A stretch of 56,062 nucleotides of DNA from positions 1-56,062 of IMG/VR virus record IMGVR_UViG_3300020473_001840. One strand, written 5' to 3'. Under the pieces are notes generated by a model that did no database searches, was not told where the DNA came from, and saw only the letters and a list, made by a program, of their open reading frames with translations. Source of the stretch: a virus. The first letter of the stretch is position 1; each line of letters opens with the position of its first letter. The translations under genes and the position numbers were made by a program. This document shows positions 719 to 23,038 of the stretch, one piece after another.

Positions 719-2008
719 ATGACAAAAAAGAAAATTTTGGTCTTATCTGACCACCCCTTATCTCCGTCTGGTGTAGGTACTCAGACAAAATATATGATTG
801 AAGCTCTTTTAGAAACTGGAAGATATAAATTCATTTGTTTAGGCGGGGCTATGAAGCATGTTGATTATAGGCCACAAAAAGTTGATCCCTTTGGCGAAGA
901 TTGGATGATTTATCCAGTTGATGGGTATGGAACAGACGAAATAATTCGCTCTATATTGCAAAAAGAGCGCCCCGATGCAATTTGGTTTATGACTGATCCT
1001 AGATTTTACGGATGGCTTTGGGAAATCGAAAATGAAGTGCGCGCGCATATCCCAATGATTTATTACCACGTGTGGGATAATTTTCCTGCACCGTCTTTTA
1101 ATGGTGGTTTTTATAGATCTACAGATAAGGTGGTCGCTATCTCTAAAGTCACGCAAAGTATTTTAGAAAGCGTAGCTCCTTCGGTAGATTCTGAATATCA
1201 TCCACATGCAGTAGATTCAAGTATTTTTAGAAAATATAAGAAAGATACTCCTGAATTTGATAGTGTCGGTAAAATGCGGTTTCAATTATTTAATAATACA
1301 TCTGCAAATATACAAAATATGCGCAAAAAGATATTTTTCTGGAATAACAGAAATGCTCGCAGAAAACAAAGCGGAACTTTAATTTGGTGGTTCAAAGAGT
1401 TTCTAGATGACGTAGGTCACGATCAGGCATGTCTTTTGATGCATACAGATGCAAAAGATCCTCATGGTCAAGATTTGCCACATCTTATAGGCCATTTAGG
1501 AGTCGGTCAAGGTCAAGTGTTTCTTTCAACTGAAAAAATCCCACCACAAGATTTAGCTAGTATGTATAATATGGCTGATTTTACTATTAATATTTCTGAT
1601 GCAGAAGGGTTTGGATTATCTACTTTAGAATCTCTTTCCTGTGGGACTCCTATTATTGTTAATATGACCGGCGGTTTACAAGAACAAGTCACCAATGGTA
1701 CGGACTGGTTCGGATGGGGAATTCAGCCGTCTTCTAAGGCAGTCATTGGCTCTTTGCAGGTGCCTTATATTTACGAAGATAGAATTTCACAAGAAGATTT
1801 TCATAATACGATGAAAAAAGCTCTTAATATTACCCAGAAGAGGTATAATAAAATGTGTAAATTGGGCATGAAGCATGTTAACGATAATTACAATTTTCTC
1901 ACATACAAAAAGAGATGGGTAGAAATTATGGATTCTGTTATTGAAAATAATGGTTCTTGGGAAACACGTAAAAATTACAAGCGCTGGCATCTACTGGAGG
2001 TAGCATGA
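719..2008 (+). CDS. GT4-type (GT-B) glycosyltransferase
   Basis: Product of 429 residues, the usual length for a GT-B enzyme. An N-terminal SPSGVGTQTKYM segment near residue 15 resembles the glycine-rich loop of GT4 acceptor domains. The C-terminal half has the nucleotide-sugar E-x7-E signature in DAEGFGLSTLE near residue 295, followed by SCGTPIIV and a GG loop. It should transfer a sugar from a nucleotide donor in the cytoplasm; donor and acceptor cannot be read. GAGGAA lies just before the ATG. Its stop overlaps the next gene by ATGA, so the two are translationally coupled. First gene of the glycan island. Confidence 0.85.
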   Translation: MTKKKILVLSDHPLSPSGVGTQTKYMIEALLETGRYKFICLGGAMKHVDYRPQKVDPFGEDWMIYPVDGYGTDEIIRSILQKERPDAIWFMTDPRFYGWLWEIENEVRAHIPMIYYHVWDNFPAPSFNGGFYRSTDKVVAISKVTQSILESVAPSVDSEYHPHAVDSSIFRKYKKDTPEFDSVGKMRFQLFNNTSANIQNMRKKIFFWNNRNARRKQSGTLIWWFKEFLDDVGHDQACLLMHTDAKDPHGQDLPHLIGHLGVGQGQVFLSTEKIPPQDLASMYNMADFTINISDAEGFGLSTLESLSCGTPIIVNMTGGLQEQVTNGTDWFGWGIQPSSKAVIGSLQVPYIYEDRISQEDFHNTMKKALNITQKRYNKMCKLGMKHVNDNYNFLTYKKRWVEIMDSVIENNGSWETRKNYKRWHLLEVA

Positions 2009-3255
2009 AAAAGAAAGTTCTTATTAAAGGTCCTATCCTAACTCGTTCTGGATATGGCGAGCAGGCACGTTTTGCTTTAAGAGCACTGCGCAGTCAGCCG
2101 GAAGTTTTTGAAATATTTGTTCAGCCAATTATCTGGGGTCAAACCTCATGGCTGATTGAAAACGATGAAGAAAGATTATGGCTTGATCAAACCATAGAAA
2201 AAACTATTTCTTATATTCAACAAGGAGGTCAATTTGATATTTCTTTACAAGTTACTATTCCTCCGGAGTGGGAAGCGCTTGCTCCAGTTAATATTGGATA
2301 TACAGCGGGAGTCGAGACTACAAAAGCGCATCATGCTTGGATTCAAAAAGGAAATCAAATGGATAAAATCATATTTGTTTCTAATCATTCAAGACAAGTT
2401 TTTGAAACTTCGAAGTATCAAGGAACCAACAATCAAACGGGTCAGGAAATTTTTTTACAGTCCACTTCGCCACTAGAGGTTGTAAATTATCCCGCTAAAG
2501 TTCACGAAAGCTTACCAGAGCTTGAGCTTGAATTAACAACATCTTTCAATTTTCTAACAGTTGCGCAATTCGGAATAAGAAAAAATTTAGAAAATACAAT
2601 TAAATGGTTTTTAGAAGAATTCATTGACGATGACGTTGGGCTTGTGGTGAAAACCAATCTTGCAAAGAATTGTTTGTTAGATAGAGAATTAGTAACAGCA
2701 CGTTTGCGTGCCCTCGTCACTGGCCAGAAGCCAGAGCGAAAATGCAAAGTGTATCTTTTGCACGGCGACATGACTGATGATGAGATTCATGCTTTATATG
2801 ATCATTCTGATATACATGCGATGTTGTGCTTGACTCACGGAGAAGGTTATGGTCTTCCTATGTTTGAAGCGGCATATTCTGGTATGCCTGTTGTATGTCC
2901 TGGGTGGTCTGGTCAGCTAGACTTTTTATTGAGTGAGACTGGCGAAGAAAAGTTTTACAATGTAAGCTATGATGTGCAGCCAGTACAAGAAGAAGCTGTT
3001 TGGGACGGTGTGATTATGGCTGAATCAATGTGGTGTTATGCGCGCGCATCTTCAGCAAAAAAGACCATGAGACAGTGTTACGAAGACGTTATCAATAATA
3101 AAGGTATCGCAAGTCAAAGCAAAGAATATGCTCAACAGCTTCATGAAAGATTTGAAGAAAATAAACTATATAAGCAATTTTGCGACACAATCTATAGCCC
3201 GACGACAGAAGATCAACAGTGGCTGGATGACTTGTCCAAGATAGAATTATTATGA
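2005..3255 (+). CDS. GT4-type glycosyltransferase
   Basis: Product of 416 residues. The N terminus has GPILTRSGYGEQAR, a GT-B acceptor-domain loop. The C-terminal donor domain carries THGEGYGLPMFEAA near residue 277, with the E-x7-E pair, then GMPVVCPGWSG. It resembles the preceding gene in domain order but is clearly divergent. The start ATG overlaps the upstream stop by four bases and its own stop overlaps the next gene in the same way, so three glycosyltransferases form one coupled unit. Donor sugar unknown. Confidence 0.85.
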   Translation: MKKKVLIKGPILTRSGYGEQARFALRALRSQPEVFEIFVQPIIWGQTSWLIENDEERLWLDQTIEKTISYIQQGGQFDISLQVTIPPEWEALAPVNIGYTAGVETTKAHHAWIQKGNQMDKIIFVSNHSRQVFETSKYQGTNNQTGQEIFLQSTSPLEVVNYPAKVHESLPELELELTTSFNFLTVAQFGIRKNLENTIKWFLEEFIDDDVGLVVKTNLAKNCLLDRELVTARLRALVTGQKPERKCKVYLLHGDMTDDEIHALYDHSDIHAMLCLTHGEGYGLPMFEAAYSGMPVVCPGWSGQLDFLLSETGEEKFYNVSYDVQPVQEEAVWDGVIMAESMWCYARASSAKKTMRQCYEDVINNKGIASQSKEYAQQLHERFEENKLYKQFCDTIYSPTTEDQQWLDDLSKIELL

Positions 3256-4103
3256 CTGTAGTAGGGTTTGTATCTGATTTTTTTAGAGAAGATCTTTTAG
3301 GAGGCGCCGAAAGTAACGATAATAATTTAATAAATTATCTTAATCAATACTTCGAAGTTAAAAAAATCAAAAGTGCAAACTTTTCTTTAAAAAATGTTTC
3401 CGATTGTGATGCACTAATAATCAGTAATTTTTTGTTTGTTCAAGACGAAGTATTACGCGCCGTAGTTAAATCTAATAAGTATATTATCTATGAGCATGAT
3501 CACAAGTATGTATCGACCAGAGATCCCGGCAAATTTTTAAACTTTAAAATACCAACAAAGCATTTAGTTTACAGAGAACTTTATGAAAAAGCAGATACAG
3601 TGGTGGTGCTAACGGAAATTTGCAAAAAAGTTTTAGATGAGAATTTACCTTTAGTAAATACTCACAGTATAGGATGCAGCTTGTGGTCAGATAATACTTT
3701 TAAACTTTTATCGTCTTTAAACAAAAACACGTCTTCTAAAGATTTGTGTGTTATGAAAAGCGCCAATCCCACTAAAAATTATAAAAACACTATAGATTTT
3801 TGTAAAACAAATAAATTAGATCCAGATTCGATAGAAAGCAATGATTATGAGGAATTTCTAAAAATCATGTCTGAATATAAAAGATTCTTATTTATACCGA
3901 CTGTGTTAGAAACTTTCTCTCGTATTTGCGCCGAAGCAAAAATGTTAAACTTGTCTGTTATGACTAATAAAAAATTAATTGGATTTTTTAGTGAAAATTA
4001 TAGCAGTCTTAGCGGTGATGAACTTATTAGCACCCTTAAAGAAAAAAATGATAAAGCGTATATGTTTTTTCGAAAAAAGTTGGAGGAGATTTGCCAGCAA
4101 TAA
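3252..4103 (+). CDS. divergent GT-B glycosyltransferase (GT4-like)
   Basis: Product of 283 residues, shorter than usual GT4 enzymes. The N terminus contains LLGGAESND near residue 16, the glycine-rich loop of the acceptor domain. TVLETFSRICAEAKML near residue 217 retains the E-x7-E donor-binding pair. The middle is compressed, so this is a minimal or degenerate GT-B protein. The final 13 bases overlap the next gene. It is the third member of the coupled glycosyltransferase run. It could be catalytically weak; the motif suggests it still binds a nucleotide sugar. Confidence 0.68.
   Translation: MTVVGFVSDFFREDLLGGAESNDNNLINYLNQYFEVKKIKSANFSLKNVSDCDALIISNFLFVQDEVLRAVVKSNKYIIYEHDHKYVSTRDPGKFLNFKIPTKHLVYRELYEKADTVVVLTEICKKVLDENLPLVNTHSIGCSLWSDNTFKLLSSLNKNTSSKDLCVMKSANPTKNYKNTIDFCKTNKLDPDSIESNDYEEFLKIMSEYKRFLFIPTVLETFSRICAEAKMLNLSVMTNKKLIGFFSENYSSLSGDELISTLKEKNDKAYMFFRKKLEEICQQ
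4082..4088 (+). promoter_or_regulatory. strong Shine-Dalgarno for a TTG start
   Basis: GGAGGAG sits 2 bases before a TTG codon at 4091 and inside the end of the upstream gene. No ATG occurs near the N terminus of the epimerase frame, and the NAD-binding motif begins only six residues in. This strong site therefore decides the start as TTG. Confidence 0.7.
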
Positions 4104-4951
4104 TTACAGGCGCCGCCGGATTTATAGGCTCTCACCTGAAAAACAAATTGGGATCAAAAACTAAATGTTGTGATCCGGCAGATTTATCAATGATGTGTCC
4201 TTCGACGCTGGAAGAAATTATCAACAATAAGAAATTGTCCATTGAGGCTGTATTTCATCTTGGCGCTATTTCTTCAACTACAGAAAGTAACATTATTAAA
4301 CTTACTGATAATAATATTTTATTTAGTTGTCGTCTTTTAGACGCGTGTATTAAAAATAATATTCCGTTTGTGTATGCGTCATCTGCATCTGTTTACGGCG
4401 CCGGTAAGCATGGCTTTGAAGAGGATGTTTCGCTATCGCCTCTTAACTATTATGCAATTAGCAAAGCATCGTTTGATATGTATGTTAATCAAAAAATAAA
4501 AGATAATCCATTAGCAAAAATTGTGGGTTTAAGATATTTTAACGTATACGGCAAAAATGAAGAGCACAAAAAAGACATGGCTAGCCCAGTCCACAAATTC
4601 TGGAAACAGGCCAACGATACTGGAATTATAAAAGTTTTTGAAGGTAGTGAAGAGTTTTATCGAGATTTTATTCATGTTGATGATGTGGTAAACATCACCT
4701 ATAATGCTCAATATTTTACTAATTCTGGAATCTATAATGTAGGCACGGGAAAAAGCCGTAGCTTTATGGACGTTGCAGAAATAATTGCTTCAATATGCAA
4801 GGCAGAAATCAAACAAATTCCGTTTCCTAATCATCTTGCAGATAAATACCAAAAGTATACTCAAAGTAATAATAATAAAATAATAAACGCCGGCATAACT
4901 GAAAAATATACTACTTTAGAAAATGGTATAAGGGAAGTAATAAGTGATTAA
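4091..4951 (+). CDS. hldD: ADP-L-glycero-D-manno-heptose 6-epimerase-like
   Basis: A 286-residue extended SDR protein. Seen: TGAAGFIGSHL for NAD(P) binding, FHLGAISSTTE, YASSASVYG, a Tyr-x3-Lys catalytic pair in YYAISK near residue 119, RYFNVYG, HKKDMASP, RDFIHVDDV, NVGTG and IPFPNHL. The SSTTE, HK-MAS and IPFP blocks are hallmarks of HldD rather than general epimerases. HldD converts ADP-D,D-heptose to ADP-L,D-heptose, the donor for LPS inner core. The next two genes encode HldE-like halves, which supports the assignment. The start is TTG behind a strong ribosome site; no ATG alternative fits. The frame overlaps the upstream gene by 13 bases. Confidence 0.85.
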   Translation: MPAIITGAAGFIGSHLKNKLGSKTKCCDPADLSMMCPSTLEEIINNKKLSIEAVFHLGAISSTTESNIIKLTDNNILFSCRLLDACIKNNIPFVYASSASVYGAGKHGFEEDVSLSPLNYYAISKASFDMYVNQKIKDNPLAKIVGLRYFNVYGKNEEHKKDMASPVHKFWKQANDTGIIKVFEGSEEFYRDFIHVDDVVNITYNAQYFTNSGIYNVGTGKSRSFMDVAEIIASICKAEIKQIPFPNHLADKYQKYTQSNNNKIINAGITEKYTTLENGIREVISD

Positions 4952-5342
4952 AGTTTTCACAAATGGCTGTTTTGACATAATTCATCCCGGCCACTTGGGG
5001 ATGTTAAAATATTGCGCTTCTCTTGGAGATCACCTAATGGTTGGAATTGATTCCGATATGCGCGTAGCGCAAAACAAAGGCCTCCATAGGCCAATAAACA
5101 ATCAAGAAGTTAGAAAATTTATACTCATGAATTTTAAATGGGTAAATGATGTTACAATTTTCAATAGTGATGCTGAGCTAACAGCGCTTGTTTCTGATTA
5201 TAAGCCAGATTATATGATTGTTGGATCTGACTGGAAAGACAAAAAAGTTATTGGTTCTGAACACGCTAAATTAGTTGGTTTTTTTGATAGAATAGATGCA
5301 TACTCAACAACAAAAATTATTGAACGTATTACTAATCGGTGA
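4944..5342 (+). CDS. heptose 1-phosphate adenylyltransferase-like (HldE C-terminal half)
   Basis: A 132-residue nucleotidyltransferase with NGCFDIIHPGHL at 7-18, where His14-Pro-Gly-His17 is the ATP-binding HxGH motif, and later VGSDWKDK. The size and the GCFD motif match the cytidylyltransferase-like domain of HldE/RfaE, which makes ADP-D-glycero-beta-D-manno-heptose. Glycerol-3-phosphate cytidylyltransferases share the fold, so the substrate rests on context: an HldD-like gene precedes it and the HldE-like kinase follows. In most bacteria both activities are one polypeptide; here they are separate, overlapping frames in reversed order. The start is GTG at 4944, overlapping the hldD-like stop by 8 bases. 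Confidence 0.8.
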   Translation: MIKVFTNGCFDIIHPGHLGMLKYCASLGDHLMVGIDSDMRVAQNKGLHRPINNQEVRKFILMNFKWVNDVTIFNSDAELTALVSDYKPDYMIVGSDWKDKKVIGSEHAKLVGFFDRIDAYSTTKIIERITNR

Positions 5343-6078
5343 TAGTTGTGAAGATGTTTATCATTATGGGACATGCGATCGCATTAGCCCAGAAGCCCCA
5401 GTGCCTATTTTTAATGAAACTTCTAAAGTTATTAAAAAAGGAATGTCGTCTAATGTGCGATTAAATCTAGAAGCATTGGGTATTTTTGTGACTCATTATA
5501 CAAATAATGAAAAAATCAGTAAACATCGATTTGTGGATTCTAGACATAATCAACATCTTTTGAGATGGGATGAGGGTGAAGAAAAACAGATTGAATTGTT
5601 TAATGTTGATTTTTTACAATTAGTAAAGCAGAGTATGCCCGATGCAGTAGTTATTAGTGATTATGATAAAGGGTTTTTAAGCTTTGAAGTTTGTATCAAG
5701 ATTGTTGATTTTTGTAAACAATATGAAATACCTATTTTTGTCGATACTAAGAAAAAAGATTTGACATGTTATAATAATTGTGTTATAAAAATAAATGAAA
5801 AAGAATTCTCAAATATTGAAAACTTTCCTGTAGATTCTGAATTTGTTATAACATTAGGTGAGAACGGCGCTCGCTACAAAAATCAAATTTTCAAAACAAC
5901 GCCGGTCGAAGTTTTTGATGTATGCGGAGCAGGAGATGTATTTTTATCAGCACTTGTGTACGGATATTTAAAAACAAATTGCATTGCCGACGCTATTCCA
6001 ATAGCTAATAAACTAGCAGCTATATCGGTAACACACATGGGAACTTACGTTTTAACTAAAAAGGACATTAATCAATAA
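5296..6078 (+). CDS. heptose 7-phosphate kinase-like (HldE N-terminal half, PfkB family)
   Basis: A 260-residue PfkB-family kinase. The N terminus has GDSCEDVYHYG and RISPEAPVPIF, a segment very typical of HldE/RfaE kinases. The C terminus holds DVCGAGDVF near residue 210 with the catalytic Asp of the GAGD anion hole. The usual GGAxNVA segment reads GMSSNVRLN, so the sugar-binding glycines are partly lost. It is about 50 residues shorter than bacterial HldE kinase domains. The expected role is phosphorylation of D-glycero-beta-D-manno-heptose 7-phosphate at C1. The ATG at 5296 overlaps the upstream gene by 47 bases; a later non-ATG start is possible. Confidence 0.8.
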   Translation: MHTQQQKLLNVLLIGDSCEDVYHYGTCDRISPEAPVPIFNETSKVIKKGMSSNVRLNLEALGIFVTHYTNNEKISKHRFVDSRHNQHLLRWDEGEEKQIELFNVDFLQLVKQSMPDAVVISDYDKGFLSFEVCIKIVDFCKQYEIPIFVDTKKKDLTCYNNCVIKINEKEFSNIENFPVDSEFVITLGENGARYKNQIFKTTPVEVFDVCGAGDVFLSALVYGYLKTNCIADAIPIANKLAAISVTHMGTYVLTKKDINQ

Positions 6079-6080
6079 AC

Positions 6081-6413
6081 ATGACTTATGTATTTGATAT
6101 AGACGGTACAATCTGTACCACCACAGAGGGTGAATACTCTCAGGCCGAGCCCTATGAAGACCGTATAAGAAAAGTAAATAATTTATACGAAGAGGGACAT
6201 ACAATAATTTTTCAAACAGCAAGAGGTATGGGCAGAAGCGGCAATTCCACTGCTCTTGCATATCATTTATTCGAAAAAGGAACAAAAAAACAATTAGAAA
6301 AGTGGGGAGTAAAATATCATAGCTTATTTTTAGGTAAACCTGCTGGAGATGTGTATATAGACGATAAGGGAATTAAAGATGAAGACTTCTTTACCAATGA
6401 AACACGTAGATAA
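6081..6413 (+). CDS. short HAD-family sugar phosphatase candidate
   Basis: A 110-residue protein with the HAD motif FDIDGT (Asp6, Asp8), a TARG motif II region, a LGKP lysine loop and YIDDK motif III-IV. Such cap-less HAD proteins are common in capsule and LPS loci. In this setting it may stand in for GmhB, which removes the C7 phosphate from heptose bisphosphate, but it lacks the cysteine-rich zinc site of classical GmhB. A second HAD domain occurs at the C terminus of the gene at 11267-12250 and could do this instead. The end overlaps the next gene by 35 bases. Confidence 0.75.
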   Translation: MTYVFDIDGTICTTTEGEYSQAEPYEDRIRKVNNLYEEGHTIIFQTARGMGRSGNSTALAYHLFEKGTKKQLEKWGVKYHSLFLGKPAGDVYIDDKGIKDEDFFTNETRR

Positions 6414-6738
6414 AGGCTGGGGCTGGGAACGATGGATTGTAAATTGTGAAGAATATTGCGGTAAGCTTTTATTTTTTGAACAAGGTAAAAGGTGTTCCTG
6501 GCATTATCATAAATTAAAAGATGAGGTTTTTTATTTACAATCAGGATTAATGATAGTAAAATATTCAGACGAGGATGATATAGAAAAAGCTCAACAAATA
6601 ATTTTAAACCCAGGAGATAACTTTCATGTTTACAGAGGTCTCCGACATCAAATGGTGGCGCTCCAGCCATCGGAGCTTTTTGAGTTTTCTACACAACACT
6701 TTGATAGCGACAGTCATCGTATTATCAAAGGAGATTAA
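6379..6738 (+). CDS. cupin protein, mannose-6-phosphate isomerase type II-like
   Basis: A 119-residue single cupin. Motif 1 is GKRCSWHYHKLKDEVFYLQSG, with metal ligands His42, His44 and Glu49. Motif 2 is PGDNFHVYRGLRHQM, giving the fourth His near residue 90. A GWGWE segment near the N terminus is shared with type II phosphomannose isomerase and mannose-1-phosphate guanylyltransferase cupin domains. It could provide mannose 6-phosphate for GDP-mannose, the substrate of the Gmd encoded further on, or act as a sugar isomerase or epimerase. The ATG at 6397 is an alternative start. Confidence 0.75.
   Translation: MKTSLPMKHVDKGWGWERWIVNCEEYCGKLLFFEQGKRCSWHYHKLKDEVFYLQSGLMIVKYSDEDDIEKAQQIILNPGDNFHVYRGLRHQMVALQPSELFEFSTQHFDSDSHRIIKGD
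6727..6734 (+). promoter_or_regulatory. Shine-Dalgarno fixing the start at 6740
   Basis: AAAGGAGA lies 5 bases before the ATG at 6740. The reading frame is open further upstream to 6626, but that part lies inside the cupin gene and has no ribosome site. This site marks the true start. Confidence 0.75.
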
Positions 6739-6739
6739 A

Positions 6740-7435
6740 ATGATTTATAATATGGATTGGTTTATTAATAATATTAAAAATAAAGTACCTTTTGCTTATG
6801 CTAGATTTAATGATGGCGAGATGATGGCGATTGATCAAGTAGGATCAGTAGTGGCCCGCGGCGATCAGTACGTTGATGCATCTTTGAGTGCTGCATTGCT
6901 TAACGCTATCAAGCATAAACAAAAAAATTATTATATTGGTGTTCCTTGCTCTTTGTGTTATCCGCGCTATAATAAACTTGCTAATGAGTTGATAGGTGAT
7001 TATGAACTAAAAACATTAGCTGTTGTAACAACTAATCGTAACTGGAAAAATTTTGTAGATACGTTTCCTGCTGCGATGCAAGATAGAAAAATGATTTGGA
7101 TCGGAGGCAATGATCAGAATATAGATGCGATAAAAGATTTAGGAATTGATATTAAAAAAGCCGCTCGCCTCCCACGGCAAAATAGTTGGGACTATTATAG
7201 AGCAATTTATTCTACAATGCCGCAGTACTTCGAACCGGGTGATGTAGTAGGTATTTCGCTAGGCCCTCTGGCGCGAATCTTAGCGCGCCAATGGTTTGAG
7301 CAAAATCCCGAGGTTACTTTTGTTGATATGGGTAGTAATTTTGATCCATTTACTCGTAATGTGCGCCATAACTGTCATAAGGGATGGGAACAGACTGGAT
7401 TTAATTTAGCTAAGCCGTGCAAGGAGTGCAATTAA
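6740..7435 (+). CDS. GT-D fold glycosyltransferase (DUF1792-like)
   Basis: Product of 231 residues from the chosen ATG. ARFNDGEMMAI at 21-31 matches the R-F-x-D-G-E signature of the DUF1792/GT-D glycosyltransferase domain, in which the D-x-E pair (Asp25, Glu27) binds the metal and nucleotide sugar. Later segments are VVTTNRNW, WIGG and GDVVGISLGPLARIL, consistent with an alpha/beta fold. Family knowledge: the founding GT-D enzyme adds glucose during glycosylation of serine-rich proteins in streptococci; other members occur in polysaccharide loci. The next gene starts immediately after the stop. Confidence 0.72.
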   Translation: MIYNMDWFINNIKNKVPFAYARFNDGEMMAIDQVGSVVARGDQYVDASLSAALLNAIKHKQKNYYIGVPCSLCYPRYNKLANELIGDYELKTLAVVTTNRNWKNFVDTFPAAMQDRKMIWIGGNDQNIDAIKDLGIDIKKAARLPRQNSWDYYRAIYSTMPQYFEPGDVVGISLGPLARILARQWFEQNPEVTFVDMGSNFDPFTRNVRHNCHKGWEQTGFNLAKPCKECN

Positions 7436-8158
7436 ATGAAAATATTTTTAATAACTTCTAATAAATATACACATGTATGTCCGATTAATATTCATTTTTT
7501 GAACAAATATTGGCCTAATCAAGAAATAGTATTATTAGGGTATGAAGAAGTATCTAAACTGCAAAATTTGCCTGAGAATGTAGTAAGAAAAAATCTAGGC
7601 ACTCAAAATGATTTTGGTACAAGCTGGACTAACGGATTAATACCTTTTTTTAATAATATTGAAGATGAATATTTCATAATTTTATTAGATGATTTGATAG
7701 TTTTAAATGAAGTTGACTTACACCGTATTAATTTGCTTGAAGAGCAATTTAAATCTGGAGATGCCGACAAAGCAATGATTGGCGGCGGCTTACCATTACA
7801 ATCTTCTACAAAAATTAACGAAGAGTTGTTATTATTTAATCAGGGAGTTGATTATCGTTGCTCACTTCATCCGGCCATTTGGACTAAAGAATATTTTTTA
7901 AAATATTTAAGACCAAATTTGTCCCCGTGGGAATTTGAAATGCACAACAATAACGCAGCAAAAGGCGACGGCTATCGAGTAATTGCTAACAACTACAGAT
8001 ATCCAGCTCAACAGCACCCTTTTTCTATATTAAATTTATACAATAAAGGTAAGCTTATGATTAATAACCGCGGCGATATTTTAGATAATCAACCCTCAAA
8101 ACGATTTTTTAATAAAGAGGATTTAATTTACATATGGGAGAAACTTAATGCGTCATAA
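7436..8158 (+). CDS. putative GT-A glycosyltransferase
   Basis: A 240-residue protein with an N-terminal FLITSN strand and, near residue 80, FIILLDDLIVL, whose Asp-Asp pair resembles the DxD metal site of GT-A enzymes. A C-terminal CSLHPAIWTKEYF and PWEFE segment looks like the acceptor or catalytic region of such enzymes. I do not recognise a specific family. ATG begins one base after the previous stop, and the last 11 bases overlap the next gene. Sugar unknown. Confidence 0.6.
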   Translation: MKIFLITSNKYTHVCPINIHFLNKYWPNQEIVLLGYEEVSKLQNLPENVVRKNLGTQNDFGTSWTNGLIPFFNNIEDEYFIILLDDLIVLNEVDLHRINLLEEQFKSGDADKAMIGGGLPLQSSTKINEELLLFNQGVDYRCSLHPAIWTKEYFLKYLRPNLSPWEFEMHNNNAAKGDGYRVIANNYRYPAQQHPFSILNLYNKGKLMINNRGDILDNQPSKRFFNKEDLIYIWEKLNAS

Positions 8159-8762
8159 TCCGTGGAGAATTGTCGAAATGTTTGAAGAGTCGGTAGCTGA
8201 CTATTGTGGCTCGAAATACGCGGTAGCTACAGATAATTGCACAGACGCTCTTTTGATGTGCTGCAGATATTTTAAAGTACAAGAGGTCACTATTCCGTGT
8301 CGTACATATTTATCGGTACCTCAATCTATTATGCATGCCGGCGGCACTGTGAAACTTAAAGATTATGAGTGGAAAGGCATCTACCAACTTGAGCCTTATC
8401 CAATTTATGATGCGGCTAAAAGATTTACTTCGGGAATGTATATTCCGGGAACATTTATGTGTCTTTCTTTTCAGACTAAAAAAAATCTTAAGATTGGGAA
8501 AGGCGGCATGATTTTAACTGACGATAAAGAGGCAGTAGATTGGTTTAAATTAGCGCGTTATGAAGGTCGCGACCACGTATCTGATGATATTGAAATTTGT
8601 GGTTGGAACATGTATATGACTCCCGAGCAAGCCGCTCGCGGCTTAACGCTTCTTCAGGTATTCCCCGAACATCACGAGGATCAGGCTGAGGATCCCTGGT
8701 ACCGCGACTTGCGTTCAATGCCCTTATTTAAAGATTGTGAAATAGTAGGAGAAAAATCATGA
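8148..8762 (+). CDS. mini DegT/DnrJ/EryC1-type PLP enzyme
   Basis: Only 204 residues, against about 370 for the family. The N terminus has the cofactor-binding region (FEESVADYCGSKYAV, then TDNCTDALL). The central part jumps to YPIYDAAKRF, which holds the Asp that contacts the PLP ring, and then SFQTKKNLKIGKGGMI, which contains the expected Schiff-base Lys. About 50 residues in the middle and 130 at the C terminus are missing. It is not a frameshift: the stop couples by ATGA to an unrelated methyltransferase gene. It could be a sugar aminotransferase stripped to its core, or a non-catalytic relic. Confidence 0.72.
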   Translation: MRHNPWRIVEMFEESVADYCGSKYAVATDNCTDALLMCCRYFKVQEVTIPCRTYLSVPQSIMHAGGTVKLKDYEWKGIYQLEPYPIYDAAKRFTSGMYIPGTFMCLSFQTKKNLKIGKGGMILTDDKEAVDWFKLARYEGRDHVSDDIEICGWNMYMTPEQAARGLTLLQVFPEHHEDQAEDPWYRDLRSMPLFKDCEIVGEKS

Positions 8763-11274: not shown

Positions 11275-12250
11275 TATTGAAAATATTGGCCAAAAATTTA
11301 TCGAAATTGTAAAGTCCCCGGAATGGGAGGCGCTTCAAGAAAAGTTCAATAACTGCGATGATATTTATGTTTTAGGCCATGGAGGTAATTTAGCAGTAGC
11401 TGATCATACAGCAGTAGATATAACAAGACTTTCAAATGGACAAAAAAACGCTATTTGTCCAAGTTCTGGCATTGTGGCTACATCGTTTATCAATGATTCT
11501 AGTTTTGATCAATGGATGGTTAATTGGCTTGATTGTAGAACTGCTGTAAGAACCAAAGCACAAATGAAAAGATCATTAGTATACGGAATATCATCGTCTG
11601 GAAAATCTACTGATGTTATTAAGGCGTTGCAATGGGCTTCCCAAAACGGAATGCAGACAGCTCTTGTGACTGGCCAGCCTATGAATATTCCAGTCCCAGG
11701 TCTCACGGTTGTAGAGCTAGGCACTCAATATTACCACTCTACCGAGGTATTAACTCTTTTGCTGCAGTATCAACTTACGCATGGTTCGGGCCGCGAATGC
11801 CCCTCAATAGGTCATAACAGTTCAGATGACCTAAAGAAAGCGAACTGGAAAGGAGGAAAAATCCGAGAACACAGCTATCCAGACGAACAAATCAATATTG
11901 GTGTTGATTTTGATGGCGTTGTTCATAAAAATTCAAAGGGTTATTATGATGGTACAATATACGATGAGCCAATTCAGGGCTCGAAAGAGGCCTTACGGCG
12001 CTTGTCTGAAAAATATACTATTATAATGTTTAGCGCTAAAGCGCGAACTGATCGAGGTCTTGTGAATGGTAAGACAGGCATTGAACTGATATGGGAGTGG
12101 CTTGAAAAGCATGATATGGCTCAATATGTAAGCAAAGTAACTGCAGAAAAACCACGAGCATGCTTTTATATTGATGATAAAGCAATTCGTTTTGAAGATT
12201 CGTGGAAACAATTATTTGACAAATTAGAACATTTAGGTTATGATATTTAA
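11267..12250 (+). CDS. SIS-domain (GmhA-like) isomerase fused to a HAD phosphatase domain
   Basis: A 327-residue two-domain protein. Residues about 25-180 form a SIS domain: VLGHGGNLAVADHTAVDITR resembles the GmhA phosphosugar loop, and GISSSGKSTDVIKAL matches its ISTSGNS block. Residues about 205-327 form a HAD domain with GVDFDGVVH (DxD), MFSAKAR and CFYIDDKAIRFED. GmhA makes D-glycero-D-manno-heptose 7-phosphate, and a HAD enzyme later removes the C7 phosphate, so the fusion joins two steps of the heptose route. The catalytic Glu and one His of E. coli GmhA do not align cleanly (Asp stands at the Glu), so another phosphosugar substrate is possible. Confidence 0.75.
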   Translation: MINIENIGQKFIEIVKSPEWEALQEKFNNCDDIYVLGHGGNLAVADHTAVDITRLSNGQKNAICPSSGIVATSFINDSSFDQWMVNWLDCRTAVRTKAQMKRSLVYGISSSGKSTDVIKALQWASQNGMQTALVTGQPMNIPVPGLTVVELGTQYYHSTEVLTLLLQYQLTHGSGRECPSIGHNSSDDLKKANWKGGKIREHSYPDEQINIGVDFDGVVHKNSKGYYDGTIYDEPIQGSKEALRRLSEKYTIIMFSAKARTDRGLVNGKTGIELIWEWLEKHDMAQYVSKVTAEKPRACFYIDDKAIRFEDSWKQLFDKLEHLGYDI

Positions 12251-12269
12251 ATAAAAACGGAGTTTATCA

Positions 12270-12977
12270 ATGAAATTACTTTTAACCACAAGAGCCGATC
12301 AAACCGTAGAGGGATGGGCTCAATTAGTTCATCCAGTGTTTCGAAAATATGCTGAACGCGTCAGTGCAGATTTCTTAATTTTAGATGAGTCATTAAATTG
12401 TAATGCTGCCCGTTCTGGTATCGGCGATGGTCTTTGGCATTTTAGAATTATGAAGCACTATGATCTTCACGAAGAATATGATAGAATTTTACATCTTGAT
12501 AGCGATATTCTGTTAACTCCTGAGTGCCCTAATTTATTTGACCATGTTCCGTACGATAGTATCGCGACTGTGTATGAAGATGTGGGTTCAAGAAAACCAC
12601 AAAGAGTACAGTGTATGTTAAATGCGCAAAATCAGTTTGGAGACATTGGGTGGCGCGATGGCTACATTAATACAGGTGTTTTTCTTACTTCGAAGTGTCA
12701 TCGCGATATTTTTCAACCAATAAATGGTAGATTTTTTACCGATTGGGGCACCGACGATGTGCACATTGGCTATCAAATCAAGAAACTTGGATATAAGGTA
12801 GCCCCATTGGATTACCAGTTTAACCATATGACAATGTTTTCAGAAGCATGGAACGGTAGTCCTGACCGATTTGATTCTCATATAATTCACTATGCTGGTC
12901 GCGGCATTTTTGATGAAGGAGTTGCAACAGATAAGTTGCATCAAGCCTCTTTAGATTATAAGAGATTATATGAATGA
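12270..12977 (+). CDS. GT8-like glycosyltransferase
   Basis: A 235-residue GT-A protein. YDRILHLDSDILLT near residue 70 carries the D-x-D metal motif in the form typical of GT8 (LDxD). DGYINTGVFL follows, the conserved NxG segment, and later TDWGTDDVHIG and HIIHYAG, matching the C-terminal His metal ligand region. GT8 enzymes add glucose or galactose, retaining, often to LPS core. A 19-base gap with CGGAG precedes the ATG, and the stop overlaps the next gene by ATGA. Confidence 0.8.
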   Translation: MKLLLTTRADQTVEGWAQLVHPVFRKYAERVSADFLILDESLNCNAARSGIGDGLWHFRIMKHYDLHEEYDRILHLDSDILLTPECPNLFDHVPYDSIATVYEDVGSRKPQRVQCMLNAQNQFGDIGWRDGYINTGVFLTSKCHRDIFQPINGRFFTDWGTDDVHIGYQIKKLGYKVAPLDYQFNHMTMFSEAWNGSPDRFDSHIIHYAGRGIFDEGVATDKLHQASLDYKRLYE

Positions 12978-13801
12978 AAAAACTTATTGCAGGCCCATGG
13001 ACGGGCGAGTTCGGGTGGGAATTGTTTGCGTGGCAAGCTTATATTCGGGCACTTTCAACAAAATTTGATCACACAACAATAATTTCTCGCGTTAATTCGC
13101 GCGCCTTATATAGTGATTTTGCAGATAATTATATTGCATACGAGCCACAAGGCGGCAATCCAGATGCTTTTTTTATGCACAACTTAGATATTAGAAGCGC
13201 ATTTAAAGACGCAGTTAGAAAAAACAATATTGTTCTTACTGAGGGTACTTCGGTAGTTTTGCCTCGTCGTATAGGATTCCCTCCGCATACTCATTACACA
13301 CAAATGGTAATGTTTGGCAAACATACTATTAAACCTAAATATGTTGTTTTGGGAGACACCGGAAAACGAAAGTATAAAAGATATGATTATATTTTTCATC
13401 TTCGCCGGCGGCCGCTGCGCCAAGAAGATAACTGGAGCACCGAAAATTGGATTAAACTGAAAAACCTTTTGGGCAATAAAAAAATTGCATGTATTGGTAC
13501 CAAAAGTGAATCTGGCCACATTGAAGGAACAGCAGATCTTCGAGATATGAAACTAGAAAAGCTGCTTCCTATACTTCGAAGTGCTGATTGCGCATTTGGT
13601 TCGTCATCTGGCCCTATGCATCTTGCGAGTCTTTGCGGGCTTCCGCATGTAGTATGGTCTATACCTCAGAACAAAATTAGATATGAAGATAACTGGAATC
13701 CTTTACAGACGCCAGTTTTATTTAATAGTGACTATGACTGGCATCCAGCGCCTGATTATATTTACGAAAAGTTTTTACAATGGAGACACAATAAAAAATG
13801 A
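12974..13801 (+). CDS. GT9-like (heptosyltransferase-type) glycosyltransferase
   Basis: A 275-residue GT-B protein. AGPWTGEFGWELFAWQ at the N terminus is a glycine-rich acceptor loop. SADCAFGSSSGPMHLASLCGLPHVVW near residue 205 closely follows the GT9 donor motif (SGPMHLA, with His and Pro in place). FHLRRRPLRQEDNWS near residue 145 provides the basic donor-phosphate contacts. GT9 enzymes are the LPS heptosyltransferases that use ADP-heptose, so this is the natural consumer of the pathway encoded upstream. It is somewhat short, and a non-heptose donor cannot be excluded. Confidence 0.72.
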   Translation: MKKLIAGPWTGEFGWELFAWQAYIRALSTKFDHTTIISRVNSRALYSDFADNYIAYEPQGGNPDAFFMHNLDIRSAFKDAVRKNNIVLTEGTSVVLPRRIGFPPHTHYTQMVMFGKHTIKPKYVVLGDTGKRKYKRYDYIFHLRRRPLRQEDNWSTENWIKLKNLLGNKKIACIGTKSESGHIEGTADLRDMKLEKLLPILRSADCAFGSSSGPMHLASLCGLPHVVWSIPQNKIRYEDNWNPLQTPVLFNSDYDWHPAPDYIYEKFLQWRHNKK

Positions 13802-14841
13802 AAACTATCGAAAGTCCAATTTTACAAAGAGACAATTTACATATTTTTAAAAGCTTAAGAGAGAAAAAAGAACTCTTAAAAGGCAGTCGGATTCTTATAA
13901 CGGGCTCTGATGGTTTTTTAGGAAGAACAATTGTATCATTTCTCAAATATCTAAATGATAAGCAATTTTCTGATAAAGACAAAGTTAAGATTATTGCAAT
14001 TGATTACAAAGATTACGATATTTGCAATTCCTTGGATTCATTTATTGAAGAGGGCCCAATAGACTATATAATTAATTGCGCTGGTATAGCGTCTCCTAAG
14101 AAGTATTTAAAAGCACCTTTAAAGACTTTAGACGTATCTTATTTGGGCACCAAGAGTGTTTTCGATTTGGCGCGCCTAAGAAATACAAAATCAATATTGA
14201 TGTTTTCATCTAGTGAAGTATATGGTACTCCAGACCCGGAAAATATTCCCACCAAGGAAGAATATATCGGAACTGTTACCACTTTTGGTAATCGTAGTTG
14301 TTATGATATTGGAAAAAACGTTTTAGAAACTTTATCGTATGTGTATTATACTAGCTACAATGCACCAGTAAATGTTTTAAGGCCGTTTAATTTATATGGC
14401 CCCCTGATGGATTTATATGATGGAAGAATTGTTCCAAATATTTGTAAATCTATGATTAATCAAACAGATTTTTCTGTTTATGGAAGCGGTCAACAAACGC
14501 GCACATACTGCTATGTTGCGGACGCGATGGTATATATGTTTCACGTACTGTTATCTGATAGCTTTGGTCAAATTTATAATATTGGCTCAGAAGATGAAGA
14601 ATTATCGGCGTTACATATCGCAGAAAAAGCATACAATCTTGTAGATGTACCCAATTCTACATTTGTGCAAAAGCCATACCCTGAAGAATACCCAAACCAA
14701 GAGCCCCGCCGGCGCTGTCCTAATATTTCAAAAGTGAAGACACTATCCAGATACTCTCCACAATATTCTTTTGAAAAAGGCTTCCTATCTTGTTATATGT
14801 TTTTTAGTCAGATTGCAGAGGACAAAAGCACCAATGCATAA
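13798..14841 (+). CDS. UDP-glucuronate decarboxylase-like (UDP-xylose synthase family)
   Basis: A 347-residue extended SDR protein. Seen: ITGSDGFLGRTIV near residue 34, CAGIASPKKYLKAPLKTLDV, FSSSEVYGTP, a Tyr-x3-Lys pair in RSCYDIGKNVLET near residue 165, FNLYGPLMDLYDGRIVPN and VYGSGQQTRTYCYVAD. The ASP-Y--P-KTL, Y-x3-K-x3-E and DGR-V-N blocks are diagnostic of UXS, which oxidises and decarboxylates UDP-glucuronate to UDP-xylose. The adjacent gene encodes a UDP-glucose dehydrogenase-like protein that would make UDP-glucuronate. Its C terminus overlaps that gene by 8 bases. Confidence 0.82.
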   Translation: MKTIESPILQRDNLHIFKSLREKKELLKGSRILITGSDGFLGRTIVSFLKYLNDKQFSDKDKVKIIAIDYKDYDICNSLDSFIEEGPIDYIINCAGIASPKKYLKAPLKTLDVSYLGTKSVFDLARLRNTKSILMFSSSEVYGTPDPENIPTKEEYIGTVTTFGNRSCYDIGKNVLETLSYVYYTSYNAPVNVLRPFNLYGPLMDLYDGRIVPNICKSMINQTDFSVYGSGQQTRTYCYVADAMVYMFHVLLSDSFGQIYNIGSEDEELSALHIAEKAYNLVDVPNSTFVQKPYPEEYPNQEPRRRCPNISKVKTLSRYSPQYSFEKGFLSCYMFFSQIAEDKSTNA

Positions 14842-15694
14842 AGTAGGAGTTATTGGAAATGGCTTCGTCGGCTCGGCTATAGCCAGCGGCTTTGGACTTC
14901 ACGCAGATGTTAAAGTTTACGATGCCGATTCTCGTAGGTCAATTAACACATTTGATGAAGTTATGGAATGTGAGTTTATATTTGTAGCTGTTCCGACGCC
15001 TATGCATTTAGGCGATAACAATAAAATAGACCTATCAATTGTTAAGGACACGTTCAGCAAAATTTCAAACTACAGCCAGGAATATCAAGATAAAAACAAA
15101 ATTATTATTTTAAAATCTACCGCAATTCCCGGAACAACTGAGTCTTTGCAAAAAGAATTTCCCACCTTAGATATAGCTTTCAATCCTGAATTTTTGACTG
15201 AGAGAAATGCCCGCCTAGACTTCATTAACACATCTAGAATTGTAATTGGTGGAAGCTCGACGGTTTGCGATCGAGTAGAGCAGCTTTATAGAGTTCGCTT
15301 TCCGCACACTTCCATTATCAGCACAGATCCCACATCTGCAGAATTTATCAAATATATGTGTAACTGTTTTTTCTCAGTTAAAATATCTTTTATGAATGAA
15401 ATGAAACAGGCCTCTGAAGCGCTTGATTTAAGTTGGATAGATGTTATGAATGGATTTTTATCTGACGGTCGGATAGGAAATTCCCACGTAGATGTTCCGG
15501 GTCATGATGGTCATTTAGGATTTGGTGGTAAATGTTTTCCAAAAGATCTTAATGCATTTATAAATTTATTTAATGATATACATGTTGAACCTACAATGCT
15601 TTCGGCAGCGTGGAGCAAAAATATGGAAGTAAGAAAAATTAAAGATTGGGAAAGTATCAAAGGCGCCACGTCTGGAAAAAACAATAAGGATTAA
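14834..15694 (+). CDS. UDP-glucose/GDP-mannose dehydrogenase-like, C-terminally short
   Basis: A 286-residue protein from ATG 14834 (chosen because VGVIGNGFVGSAIA follows at once). Seen: FVAVPTPM, KSTAIPGTT, FNPEFLTERNARLDFI, AEFIKYMCNCFFSVKI and GFGGKCFPKDL near residue 229, which holds the catalytic Cys. All core motifs of the family are kept. Usual members have 390-450 residues; the C-terminal UDP-binding domain is absent. Short versions of this type could still function, or this copy may depend on a partner. It probably makes UDP-glucuronate for the decarboxylase-like gene just upstream. Confidence 0.8.
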   Translation: MHKVGVIGNGFVGSAIASGFGLHADVKVYDADSRRSINTFDEVMECEFIFVAVPTPMHLGDNNKIDLSIVKDTFSKISNYSQEYQDKNKIIILKSTAIPGTTESLQKEFPTLDIAFNPEFLTERNARLDFINTSRIVIGGSSTVCDRVEQLYRVRFPHTSIISTDPTSAEFIKYMCNCFFSVKISFMNEMKQASEALDLSWIDVMNGFLSDGRIGNSHVDVPGHDGHLGFGGKCFPKDLNAFINLFNDIHVEPTMLSAAWSKNMEVRKIKDWESIKGATSGKNNKD

Positions 15695-15699
15695 AAGTC

Positions 15700-16854
15700 A
15701 TGATTACTTTAGTAAAAGATACTATTGATAAGACCGATATTGATGAATTGATCACATGGCTCAAAAAATATCCTCGCCTGACTAAAGGCGAACAAACTAT
15801 CAAACTAGAACAAAAGTGGGCTGAATGGCTCGGTACTGAGTATGCGGTATATGTAAACTCGGGATCTTCAGCATTGTTGCTTATGATTTATGCATTGATT
15901 GAGGCTGGATATGTATCTCAGAATGATAAAATTGTAGTTCCAGCTTTATCATGGGCAACGGATTTGGCGCCCGTAATTCAATTTGGGCTAGACCCGGTGT
16001 TGTGTGATATTAACCTTGAAGACCTCTCAGTTAATTTGCAGCATTTAGAAAAGATTTTTATAGAACAGTCTCCCAAGGCACTGATATTGGTATCAGTGCT
16101 GGGCCTAACTCCTCAAATGGATAAAATAGTTAATTTGTGTGAGAAGTACAATGTGCACTTACTCGAAGATGCGTGCGAAAGCACAGGTAGCAAATTTAAA
16201 AGTAAAAAGTTAGGTAATTTTGGCTTAATGTCCGCTTTTTCTTGTTATTTTGGTCATCATTTTAGCACTATTGAAGGTGGATTCATCAACACTAATAGCA
16301 AATTTTTATATGATTTGTTAAAAATGTTGCGCTCACACGGCTGGAGTCGAGATTTAGATCAGCAAGGAAAAGAGTATTTTGGCGCTAATGATGGAACAGA
16401 GTTTGATAATTTATATCGATTTTATGTACCTGGATTCAATCTAAGATCTACTGACTTGCAAGCATTTATTGGTTTAGGCCAAATTGATAAATTAAACAAG
16501 GCAAACCAAATAAGAAATGAAAATTATTTGTTTTATTGCAATAATATTAAAAATAATTATTGGATGCCTGCTGGGCAAGATAACTTTATTAGCAATTTTG
16601 CGTTCCCTCTCATACACCCCAGCAGAGATAATCTTGTAAAAGAATTTCAACAAAATAATATTGAAATCAGACCTTTAATCTGTGGCTCTATGGGAACACA
16701 GCCAATGTATAAAAAACGCTATAAGCCTGTGTCTTTAAAAAATGTATCTATTGTTGATCAGTATGGTTGCTATATTCCAAATCATCCAAAGCTTACTGAG
16801 CAGGAGCTTGATACTATCGTTAGCATTGTTAATAAACATGTGAGTAATGATTAA
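15700..16854 (+). CDS. colD: GDP-4-keto-6-deoxymannose 3-dehydratase-like (ColD type)
   Basis: A 384-residue DegT/DnrJ/EryC1-fold PLP enzyme of full length. VNSGSSALLL binds the PLP phosphate and LLEDACES holds the ring Asp. The segment where aminotransferases have the Schiff-base Lys reads YFGHHFSTIEGG, with His186-His187. A His there is the hallmark of the ColD and RfbH 3-dehydratases, which use PMP rather than a lysine-bound PLP. GFNLRSTDLQAF follows. ColD, fed by Gmd, makes GDP-4-keto-3,6-dideoxymannose on the way to GDP-colitose. The two next genes are an Fcl/ColC-like enzyme and gmd, which fits the pathway exactly. Confidence 0.78.
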   Translation: MITLVKDTIDKTDIDELITWLKKYPRLTKGEQTIKLEQKWAEWLGTEYAVYVNSGSSALLLMIYALIEAGYVSQNDKIVVPALSWATDLAPVIQFGLDPVLCDINLEDLSVNLQHLEKIFIEQSPKALILVSVLGLTPQMDKIVNLCEKYNVHLLEDACESTGSKFKSKKLGNFGLMSAFSCYFGHHFSTIEGGFINTNSKFLYDLLKMLRSHGWSRDLDQQGKEYFGANDGTEFDNLYRFYVPGFNLRSTDLQAFIGLGQIDKLNKANQIRNENYLFYCNNIKNNYWMPAGQDNFISNFAFPLIHPSRDNLVKEFQQNNIEIRPLICGSMGTQPMYKKRYKPVSLKNVSIVDQYGCYIPNHPKLTEQELDTIVSIVNKHVSND

Positions 16855-17756
16855 TGTTTGAAAAAGTATTGGTATTGGGAGGCACTGGATTCTTAGGCTC
16901 TAGAATGAAATTGCATAAGCCTGAGTGGACTTATGTTGGCTCAAAAGATTGTAATCTTATTGATAGTAAAGAGTGTTATGAGTTGTTTAGTGACATAAAG
17001 CCAGATGCTATTATACACTTGGCCGGCCGAGTTGGAGGAATCAAAGACAACGCTCAAAGACAAGCAGAATTTTTTTATGATAATGTAATGATTAATACCA
17101 ATGTAATTCACCAAGCGTATAAGACCAATATTCCTCGGGTGTTGTGTGCGCTTAGCACATGTTGTTATCCGAATGAGGTGCAAAAATATCCTCTTACAGA
17201 AGACGATATTTTAAATGGTCCTCCCGCTCCTACAAACTTATCATATGGATTTGCAAAAAGAGTTTTATATATACAAACTAAATCATATAGAAGCCAGTAT
17301 GGATTGAATTACTCTTGCTTTTGTCCATCTAATATTTATGGACCTCAAGATAATTTTTATAATGATAAATCACACTTTGTGGCCGCTATGATAAGAAAAA
17401 TTTATAATGCACCCCAAAAAGGATCAGTGGAATTTTGGGGAACCGGTCGCCCACGGCGCCAGCAACTGTATGTAGATGATTTAGTAAGAATTATACCTAC
17501 GTTATTAGAACGGCACAATAGCGATTGTCCTGTTATTGTGGCACCAAGCGAGAATCTTACCATAAAAGAGATGATCGATGTGTGTGTGAAAGCTTCCGGA
17601 AAAGAAATTATGCCTATTTTTAATGGAAAGCTTGATGGACAATATCGGAAAGATGGAGACAATAAAAATCTTTTAAAATTGTTGGGAAATTTTAACTTTA
17701 CAAAATTCAAAAATGGATTGAGGGAAACTTATGAGTGGTATGCAGAACAACAATAA
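16854..17756 (+). CDS. GDP-L-fucose synthase / ColC-like epimerase-reductase
   Basis: A 300-residue extended SDR enzyme. [12 protein letters not shown] binds [30 protein letters not shown] and a Tyr-x3-Lys pair in [11 protein letters not shown] near residue 135 are the strongest Fcl (WcaG) features, with [11 protein letters not shown] and WGTGRPRRQ after. Fcl makes GDP-L-fucose; ColC is its close homologue and makes GDP-L-colitose. The neighbouring ColD-like dehydratase makes colitose the better guess, but the motifs alone do not separate them. It overlaps ColD by one base (TAATG) and gmd by 26. Confidence 0.82.
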
Positions 17757-18747
17757 AACAGCTTTAATTACAGGAGTTACGGGCCAAGATGGCTCATACT
17801 TGCTAGATTTATTGCTAAAAAAAGGCTATCATGTTGTTGGCGTCAAGAGAAGAACATCTTTGATAAATACTGATAGAATTGATCATGTTTTTGAAAATGA
17901 AGAAAATGTTATGATGTTTGATTTTGTTTATGGTAATATGATAGACAGTGGAAATCTCTACAGAATTTTACAGGAACACAAACCAGACGAAATCTACAAT
18001 CTAGCTGCTCAATCACACGTAAGAGTGTCGTTCGACACACCAGAAGAAACTTCTGAAATTGTAGCAATGGGTACCCTTAGACTTTTAGAAGCCGCAAGAA
18101 ATGTTTGTCCTCAAGCTAAAATTTATCAAGCTTCATCTTCAGAGATGTTTGGTGATAATCCCATCGTTCCACAGGACGAGAATACAAGATTAATGCCGGC
18201 TAGCCCATACGCATGCGCAAAAGTTTTTGCACACAATCTTTGTAGAAATTATCGTAAAAGTTATGGTATGCACGTATCGAGTGGGATTTTATTCAATCAC
18301 GAATCCCCTCGCAGAGGGGAGACTTTTGTAACTCGTAAAATTACAAGAGCCGCTGCAAAGATTCGTTTAGGGCTTCAAGATACTTTATATTTAGGTAATC
18401 TGGATGCTAAAAGAGATTGGGGATTTGCGGGAGATTATGTAGAAGCAATGTGGAAAATGTTGCAGCAGGAAGAGCCGGACGACTATGTTATAGCAACAGG
18501 CGAAACGCACACCGTTCGTGAGTTTTTGCAGGAAGTTTTTGAATATGCAGGTTTGGATGTACAGAAGCATGTAGAAATCAATCCTCGTTTATTTCGCCCT
18601 CATGAAGTGCCTCTTTTATTAGGGGACCCTGCCAAAGCAAAAGAACGCTTACATTGGGAACCAAAAATCAAATTTAAAGAATTAGCCAGAATGATGTATG
18701 ATTATGATCTGGCTGAATTAAAAAAAAAGGAGCTAAGTAATGGATAA
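17731..18747 (+). CDS. gmd: GDP-mannose 4,6-dehydratase
   Basis: A 338-residue enzyme with every Gmd hallmark: [44 protein letters not shown], a catalytic Tyr-x3-Lys in [12 protein letters not shown] near residue 155, [17 protein letters not shown] and [10 protein letters not shown]. It converts GDP-mannose to GDP-4-keto-6-deoxymannose, the common precursor of fucose, colitose, perosamine and rhamnose. With the two preceding genes it completes a GDP-colitose or GDP-fucose route. It is the last gene of the glycan island and overlaps the next small gene by 8 bases. Confidence 0.93.
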
Positions 18748-18970
18748 TAACGCAGATAGCAAAACTCATAAGCTATCAACACAAGCGCTTGGAGCGGTTA
18801 TGATGGCGCTTCAGGAAGCATTGTTAAATGAGTTGGACATTGTTCCAATATTGAAAAACTTTGATTTAGTTGAAACGCAGGAAGGGCTTATGGTAAAAAA
18901 TCCCCCTACTGTAAGATTTAGCGACAATAGCGCGATTACTAATACAGATTTAGAAAATATGGTTAAGTGA
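18740..18970 (+). CDS. small hypothetical protein
   Basis: A 76-residue protein that I do not recognise. It is predicted mostly helical at the N terminus ([20 protein letters not shown]) with an acidic, Asn-rich C terminus. It starts inside the end of gmd and its stop overlaps the next ATG (TGATG), so it belongs to the same transcript. It marks the change from glycan genes to core phage genes, ahead of a zinc-ribbon protein and the late sigma factor. Confidence 0.65.
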
Positions 18971-23030: not shown

Positions 23031-23038
23031 GAAAAAAC

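Follow-up and report, generated by a model that had tools for sequence, protein, structure and literature searches.

A fixed-site, exchangeable glycan gene island with a conserved glycosyltransferase pair in a lineage of uncultured marine T4-related phages

Clusters of sugar genes in T4-like marine phages have been published before (PMC3037559, PMC7029224), and we compare with them an island of glycan genes at positions 719–18747 of the viral record IMGVR_UViG_3300020473_001840, a complete record of 56,062 bases that is called the window below. The lipopolysaccharide (LPS) clusters of T4-like marine cyanophages (P-SSM2, S-SSM7, S-CAM1) are likewise large and have kinase, nucleotidyltransferase, GmhA, cupin and epimerase genes in common with the island, but they are without the pair of adjacent glycosyltransferase (GT) genes, here g1 and g2, with which it begins, they occupy another genome position (before gp13 in S-SSM7), and only some cyanophages have one. 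Whether such LPS-like clusters of marine T4-like phages have a function or represent stuffer DNA was stated to be unknown in 2010 (PMC3037559). Pelagimyophages are also marine T4-like phages with variable sugar genes, their GTs being located in a hypervariable host-recognition region (PMC7029224); these, however, have been reported as scattered groups of two or three, intermingled with tail-fibre genes, whereas the lineage of the window has a single contiguous cluster at a fixed site. In the Flavobacterium phage immuto and the Microcystis phage Mel-JY01, adjacent homologues of g1 and g2, which in immuto are gp181 and gp180, follow a homologous PD-(D/E)XK nuclease gene, as in the window, and precede other sugar genes (GT, methyltransferase and, in immuto, aminotransferase genes). 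These clusters are smaller (~6–11 kb), do not lie beside a sigma gene, and show ~29–32% identity.

Two further systems offer parallels. The capsid glycans of chloroviruses combine a conserved core with virus-specific outer sugars (PMC9614988). Chloroviruses such as PBCV-1 and NY-2A glycosylate their capsids with virus-encoded soluble GTs, and the gene pattern of the window lineage would fit such a combination of conserved and variable parts; chloroviruses are, however, giant viruses of eukaryotes, and the acceptor in the phage lineage is a putative one. Bacterial Wzx/Wzy O-antigen (rfb) loci resemble the island in their fixed site, conserved flanks and exchangeable sugar-gene interior, but the window lineage is without flippase, polymerase and initiating transferase, and its island resides in a virus. 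Our literature search, confined to an open-access library, turned up no earlier account in this lineage of an island that is replaceable, lies at a fixed site and has a conserved GT pair.

As a preliminary description of the window had proposed, 23 co-directional genes fill positions 719–18747 between a PD-(D/E)XK (Cas4-like) nuclease and a late sigma factor. All are on the plus strand, with intergenic gaps of -47 to +19 bp, and nearly all are sugar genes rather than members of non-glycan families: for most, profile searches with Pfam and NCBIfam point to families of nucleotide-sugar metabolism or glycosyl transfer. The nuclease (1..711, plus strand; PF12705, E = 2.9e-9) is represented by an open reading frame (ORF) open from base 1, its 5' end cut by the contig. 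The gp55-like sigma factor (19533..20237, plus strand) is assigned by a match to phrog_234 (E = 9e-4) that is weak by itself, yet hundreds of relatives exist. The same flanks and layout recur in more than 40 other contigs, which rules out a chimera of host contig and phage sequence.

Relatives were found starting from the window and chosen for the presence of both flanks, so that members without an island could have been missed. Across 44 related IMG/VR contigs carrying both genes on one stretch, the distance from nuclease to sigma gene is 8.6–25.4 kb, with a median of 19.0 kb. We read 42 islands, the window included; coding density is 0.96–1.02 in every one of them and nearly all ORFs are co-directional. 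After clustering, the nuclease, g1 and the sigma factor are found in 42/42 islands and g2 in 41/42, while two small ORFs beside the sigma gene occur in 40/42 and 39/42. The right flank of the window holds three such small conserved ORFs (18740..19567, plus strand; starts at 18740, 18967 and 19217, the second encoding a zinc ribbon), present in 75–78 of 82 loci. The rest of the islands comprises 263 variable families, a count that would fall with more sensitive clustering; 141 of these were seen once, median pairwise sharing is 6%, and there are 27 gene-content types among the 42 islands. Among the variable families Pfam identifies epimerases, GTs (GT2, GT4, GT11, GT29), methyltransferases, sulfotransferases, formyltransferases and cupins, as well as DegT enzymes, cytidylyltransferases and radical-SAM proteins. 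Two near-complete genomes carry their glycan genes in one contiguous cluster, with no second glycan cluster elsewhere. The locus is a fixed site with conserved flanks and an exchangeable interior. The island had initially been considered unusual for one phage; all examined relatives that have the two flanks carry an island of similar size, and the unusual part is its wholesale replacement between relatives.

Island content hardly tracks descent (Spearman 0.14, 861 pairs). The relatives G013 and G032 have core proteins 77–90% identical and islands with nearly nothing in common, and conversely G016 and G019, with core proteins 41–71% identical, share 25 island genes, belonging to 22 families, in the same order at a median identity of 79%. 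Could such sharing reflect recent transfer? Fourfold sites are saturated in most shared island types, including G016/G019 and G004/G035, and these shared types are therefore old, so that recent transfer cannot account for all shared islands. Only in genes 17–20 of G009 and G033 are fourfold sites clearly unsaturated (0.28–0.55 versus ~0.7), which therefore indicates recent transfer of this block. The island genes are under strong purifying selection: their median dN/dS is 0.042 (31 pairs with measurable dS) versus 0.046 for core genes (66 pairs).

The deeply conserved part of the island is the pair of predicted GT4 enzymes g1 (719..2008; PF00534, E = 5e-12), in which the EX7E motif is invariant, and g2 (2005..3255; PF00534, E = 8e-6, just under the cut-off), which has a profile match to g1. 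Besides immuto and Mel-JY01, an adjacent pair occurs in the Rhodothermus phage RM378, where it stands alone and the link to g2 is weak (E = 5e-11). The pair thus recurs among phages whose hosts belong to different phyla, which suggests an acceptor of phage origin. AlphaFold models (AF2; pLDDT 88 for g1 and 92 for g2) both have as their best PDB match the protein B736L of chlorovirus NY-2A (3oy2), in the case of g2 by four orders of magnitude, at a sequence identity of only 15–17%. In two islands g2 is ~690 aa long (L183:12714-14777 and L173:1804-3882), apparently through fusion to an extra domain.

None of the 1058 island ORFs has at least four hydrophobic segments, the feature by which a gtrABC-type membrane flippase GtrA or a polytopic GtrC was sought. 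No match to the flippase (PF01943), the initiating-transferase (PF02397) or the polymerase/ligase (PF04932) family was obtained in 17 phage records; among 14 control genomes 13, 9 and 9, respectively, were positive. The two near-complete genomes hold no flippase-sized polytopic protein. A gene of the thymidylate-synthase fold, to which the hydroxymethylase needed for T-even hydroxymethylcytosine belongs, is present in 0/16 relatives (eight of which are 187 kb or longer) and was detected in phage immuto and in 9/14 controls. With neither export genes nor a T-even hydroxymethylase, the simplest reading is that the glycan is assembled in the cytoplasm, either on a protein or on the lipid A-core of the host, rather than by phage-encoded export on a lipid carrier or on DNA of the T-even type.

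What could be the role of an island of this kind? The best explanation, at about even odds, is that the locus, fixed in site and exchangeable in content across a widespread uncultured marine T4-related lineage, serves the cytoplasmic glycosylation of a phage protein and thereby gives rise to virion glycotypes. Slightly more tentative is the specific form of this proposal, in which the g1–g2 pair primes a phage-encoded virion protein and an exchangeable cassette of sugar genes, swapped from phage to phage, provides every virion with a glycan of its own. The phage would make activated sugars in the infected cell, namely ADP-heptose, a GDP-colitose-type sugar and probably a UDP-uronic acid or pentose. 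The glycan would be started by g1 and g2 on an acceptor that all members of the lineage have in common; elongation and methylation by the variable enzymes would then yield a structure specific to the phage. The acceptor would most likely be a structural protein of the phage, with glycosylation in the cytoplasm giving the virion its glycotype. Islands would be replaced between phages, probably via recombination in the conserved flanks, and the diversity of glycotypes might be selected as an escape from whatever recognises virion glycans.

A virion acceptor is favoured because there are no export genes, because the pair is conserved across hosts, and because its fold has a viral relative. The gene pattern of soluble GTs, a conserved pair and a variable remainder fits virion glycosylation of the chlorovirus type, with the enzymatic order a presumed one. 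A further argument, by analogy with another phage group, comes from the cyanophages, which carry the same heptose cassette as the window; the LPS of marine Synechococcus is without heptose (PMC4515613), and this combination might favour a virion target. Several considerations weigh against virion decoration. B736L binds GDP-mannose and its role is unproven, while the NY-2A capsid glycan is without mannose (PMC9614988); resemblance to its fold is therefore no proof that a protein is glycosylated, and GT4 folds are generic. Both heptose and colitose are sugars typical of LPS, and soluble LPS-core GTs need no flippase either.

The latter two points also support the main alternative, in which the enzymes during infection add or replace sugars on the host lipid A-core or another surface glycan and block the adsorption of competitors, the diversity of islands following host serotypes or competitor receptors. 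Such a function has been proposed for the pelagimyophage GTs (PMC7029224), and frequency-dependent selection would account for the diversity. A lytic phage, however, needs the effect only briefly, yet ~18 kb are maintained; seroconversion-type and O-antigen export genes are missing, and the host range of the GT pair spans different phyla. We regard host-surface remodelling or superinfection exclusion as possible, at a clearly lower probability than glycosylation of the virion. The uses listed in the preliminary description (surface remodelling, virion decoration, superinfection exclusion) were thus the right ones to weigh, and the evidence leans towards virion decoration without being decisive.

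Glycosylation of modified phage-DNA bases as a defence against restriction, as in T-even phages, appears improbable: T-even relatives glucosylate hydroxymethylcytosine, some T4-like phages use pentoses, and UDP-pentose genes are plausible here, but the 16 relatives have no gene of the thymidylate-synthase/hydroxymethylase family, and an inventory with heptose and colitose, with sulfotransferases and with as many as eight GTs goes far past any known DNA glycan. Stuffer DNA, or functionless, passively acquired host genes filling the head, was left open for the cyanophage clusters (PMC3037559) and would suit the freely varying content, but it is very unlikely and largely refuted by the selection data, because dN/dS of ~0.04 in the island equals that of core genes, ORFs cover 96–102% of all 42 islands, and gene order is preserved across long divergence. 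The remaining probability belongs to other acceptors or to the lack of any function.

The other genes of the window's island allow the sugar routes to be assessed. All five kinds of enzyme of the ADP-heptose route are present: a fusion of a GmhA-like SIS isomerase with a HAD domain (g16, 11267..12250; TIGR00441, E = 3e-8, and TIGR01689, E = 3e-5, both under cut-off), an HldE N-domain-like heptose-7-phosphate kinase (g6, 5296..6078; TIGR02198, E = 6.9e-42, under cut-off) with cyanophage homologues at 44–47% identity, a small HAD phosphatase that is EcbF/BcbF-like rather than GmhB (g7, 6081..6413; TIGR01689, E = 1.1e-11, under cut-off), an HldE C-domain-like nucleotidyltransferase (g5, 4944..5342; TIGR02199, E = 2.9e-31, under cut-off), and an HldD-type ADP-heptose 6-epimerase (g4, 4091..4951; TIGR02197, 275.4 bits against a cut-off of 274.6), the only member of the set above its curated cut-off. 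The GDP-colitose-type set consists of a GDP-mannose 4,6-dehydratase (GMD; g23, 17731..18747; TIGR01472, 461 bits against a cut-off of 415), a ColD-type pyridoxal-phosphate (PLP) 3-dehydratase (g21, 15700..16854; best PDB relative WbdK/ColD, E = 6.9e-58) and a GDP-fucose synthase (GFS)/ColC-like short-chain dehydrogenase/reductase (SDR; g22, 16854..17756; NF047922, E = 4e-59, under cut-off), ColC being present only in this GFS-like form. The g21 motif GHHFSTIEGG aligns to SHHIATMEGG of ColD/WbdK, and by our reading of this motif a histidine therefore replaces the PLP lysine of aminotransferases.

At the level of sequence, both routes are well supported, and they are the firm half of the four activated-sugar routes originally suggested. 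A UDP-xylose route is only plausible, with an SDR epimerase/dehydratase that is possibly UDP-xylose synthase-like (g19, 13798..14841; PF01370, E = 6e-37; best NCBIfam matches mixed). The next gene encodes a short UDP-sugar 6-dehydrogenase (g20, 14834..15694; TIGR03026, E = 6e-53; catalytic-Cys motif GGKCFPKD). The CMP-sugar synthetase-like cytidylyltransferase (g15, 10615..11274; PF02348, E = 7.7e-21; PseF-like, under cut-off) stands alone, with no NeuB-type synthase among the Pfam/NCBIfam matches of the island, and a nonulosonate route is therefore unsupported. The conserved short UDP-sugar dehydrogenases of the window and related islands measure 261–287 aa and keep the catalytic-Cys motif GGxCxPKD, and the C-terminal domain family gives no match in them.

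Of at least eight glycosyltransferases claimed at the outset, four have profile support: g1, g2, the GT-D-fold enzyme g9 (6740..7435; PF08759, E = 7e-9) and the GT8 enzyme g17 (12270..12977; PF01501, E = 9e-5, near the cut-off). The other four are candidates by motifs or weak matches. A conserved ETxSRxVVEA stretch makes g3 (3252..4103; no Pfam family; its family in 22/42 islands) GT4-like, g10 (7436..8158; no Pfam match) has a GT-A-like LDD motif read by eye, g14 (9957..10622) is weakly MptE-like (PF01973, E = 0.0035, under cut-off), and g18 (12974..13801) resembles GT9 heptosyltransferases in its GPMHLASLCGLP motif, also read by eye, with no Pfam match. Assignment of g3 to GT4 was not borne out by profile comparison with g1, which was not significant, nor that of g18 to GT9 by a PDB sequence search, which gave no match. 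The island is completed by a cupin (g8, 6379..6738; PF07883, E = 9e-7) showing ~80% identity wherever it is present, a methyltransferase-like protein (g12, 8759..9358; PF05175, E = 9e-5, just under cut-off), a methyltransferase (g13, 9355..9960; PF13489, E = 4.5e-10), and a short DegT-family protein of 204 aa (g11, 8148..8762; PF01041, E = 2.6e-22). This half-length form (~200 aa, where normal DegT enzymes have ~380 aa) is of equal length in 20 related islands and is also found in phage immuto (gp172).

The T4-like nature of the phage is borne out by the baseplate homologues gp25 (E = 3e-18) and gp6 (E = 3.5e-17) in the window, together with the gp55 homologue, and by the gp23 major capsid family in 14/16 relatives (E ~1e-60), the capsid region lying outside the window. 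At least 594 relatives of the sigma factor are present in IMG/VR; the top 80 are 75–90% identical to it, and the contigs reach 203 kb. The nearest annotated phages, at ~30% identity, infect Flavobacterium and Microcystis. The exact T4-type late promoter TATAAATA is not enriched in the window, and in late-promoter mapping the k-mers upstream of structural genes were mainly coding or ribosome-site signal. The large structural genes beside the sigma gene (window 22005–29575) also vary fast, because they show ~32–36% identity between relatives whose sigma factors are ~80% identical. A giant structural ORF of 3252 aa occupies window positions 33343–43101; its relatives are longer and align partially, at 52–54%.

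Two near-complete relatives encode a one-piece tmRNA upstream of the island (RF00023, E = 6e-53; G024 59924-60255, L227/L228, and L239:5525-5864, minus strand), with the tags ANNNNHFEQRLAA and ANNNNYFEQRLAA, as well as five to eight tRNAs. With g1 as query, a scan of genome contigs identified five contigs, each in a metagenome bin of another taxon. In one such bin the phage tmRNA had a good match, confined to a contig that is apparently the phage; among the 80 genomes of the phylum of that bin it otherwise matched short tRNA-like ends only. A search of 7 genomes of another order, which had no control and is therefore uninformative, returned nothing. A g1 homologue with 63% identity lies inside a 2.8 Mb assembled bacterial chromosome from a metagenome bin of candidate division WOR-3 (CP070664.1), which represents either a misjoined or an integrated phage.

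The lineage bears on the question of function versus stuffer raised in 2010, since its island genes are under strong purifying selection, occupy a fixed site and are exchanged. Whichever the acceptor, the islands are a source of uncharacterised sugar enzymes, among them short UDP-sugar dehydrogenases, short DegT proteins, sulfotransferases and GT29-like enzymes, and since a Flavobacterium phage that carries the GT pair is in culture, the question of the acceptor can be tested directly. If the glycan is placed on the host, the lineage would possess a large repertoire of superinfection-exclusion chemistries. If it is placed on the virion, free marine phages would display a serotype-like diversity selected by something that reads virion glycans, and a glycotype locus of this kind, if true, would be the viral counterpart of bacterial serotype switching.

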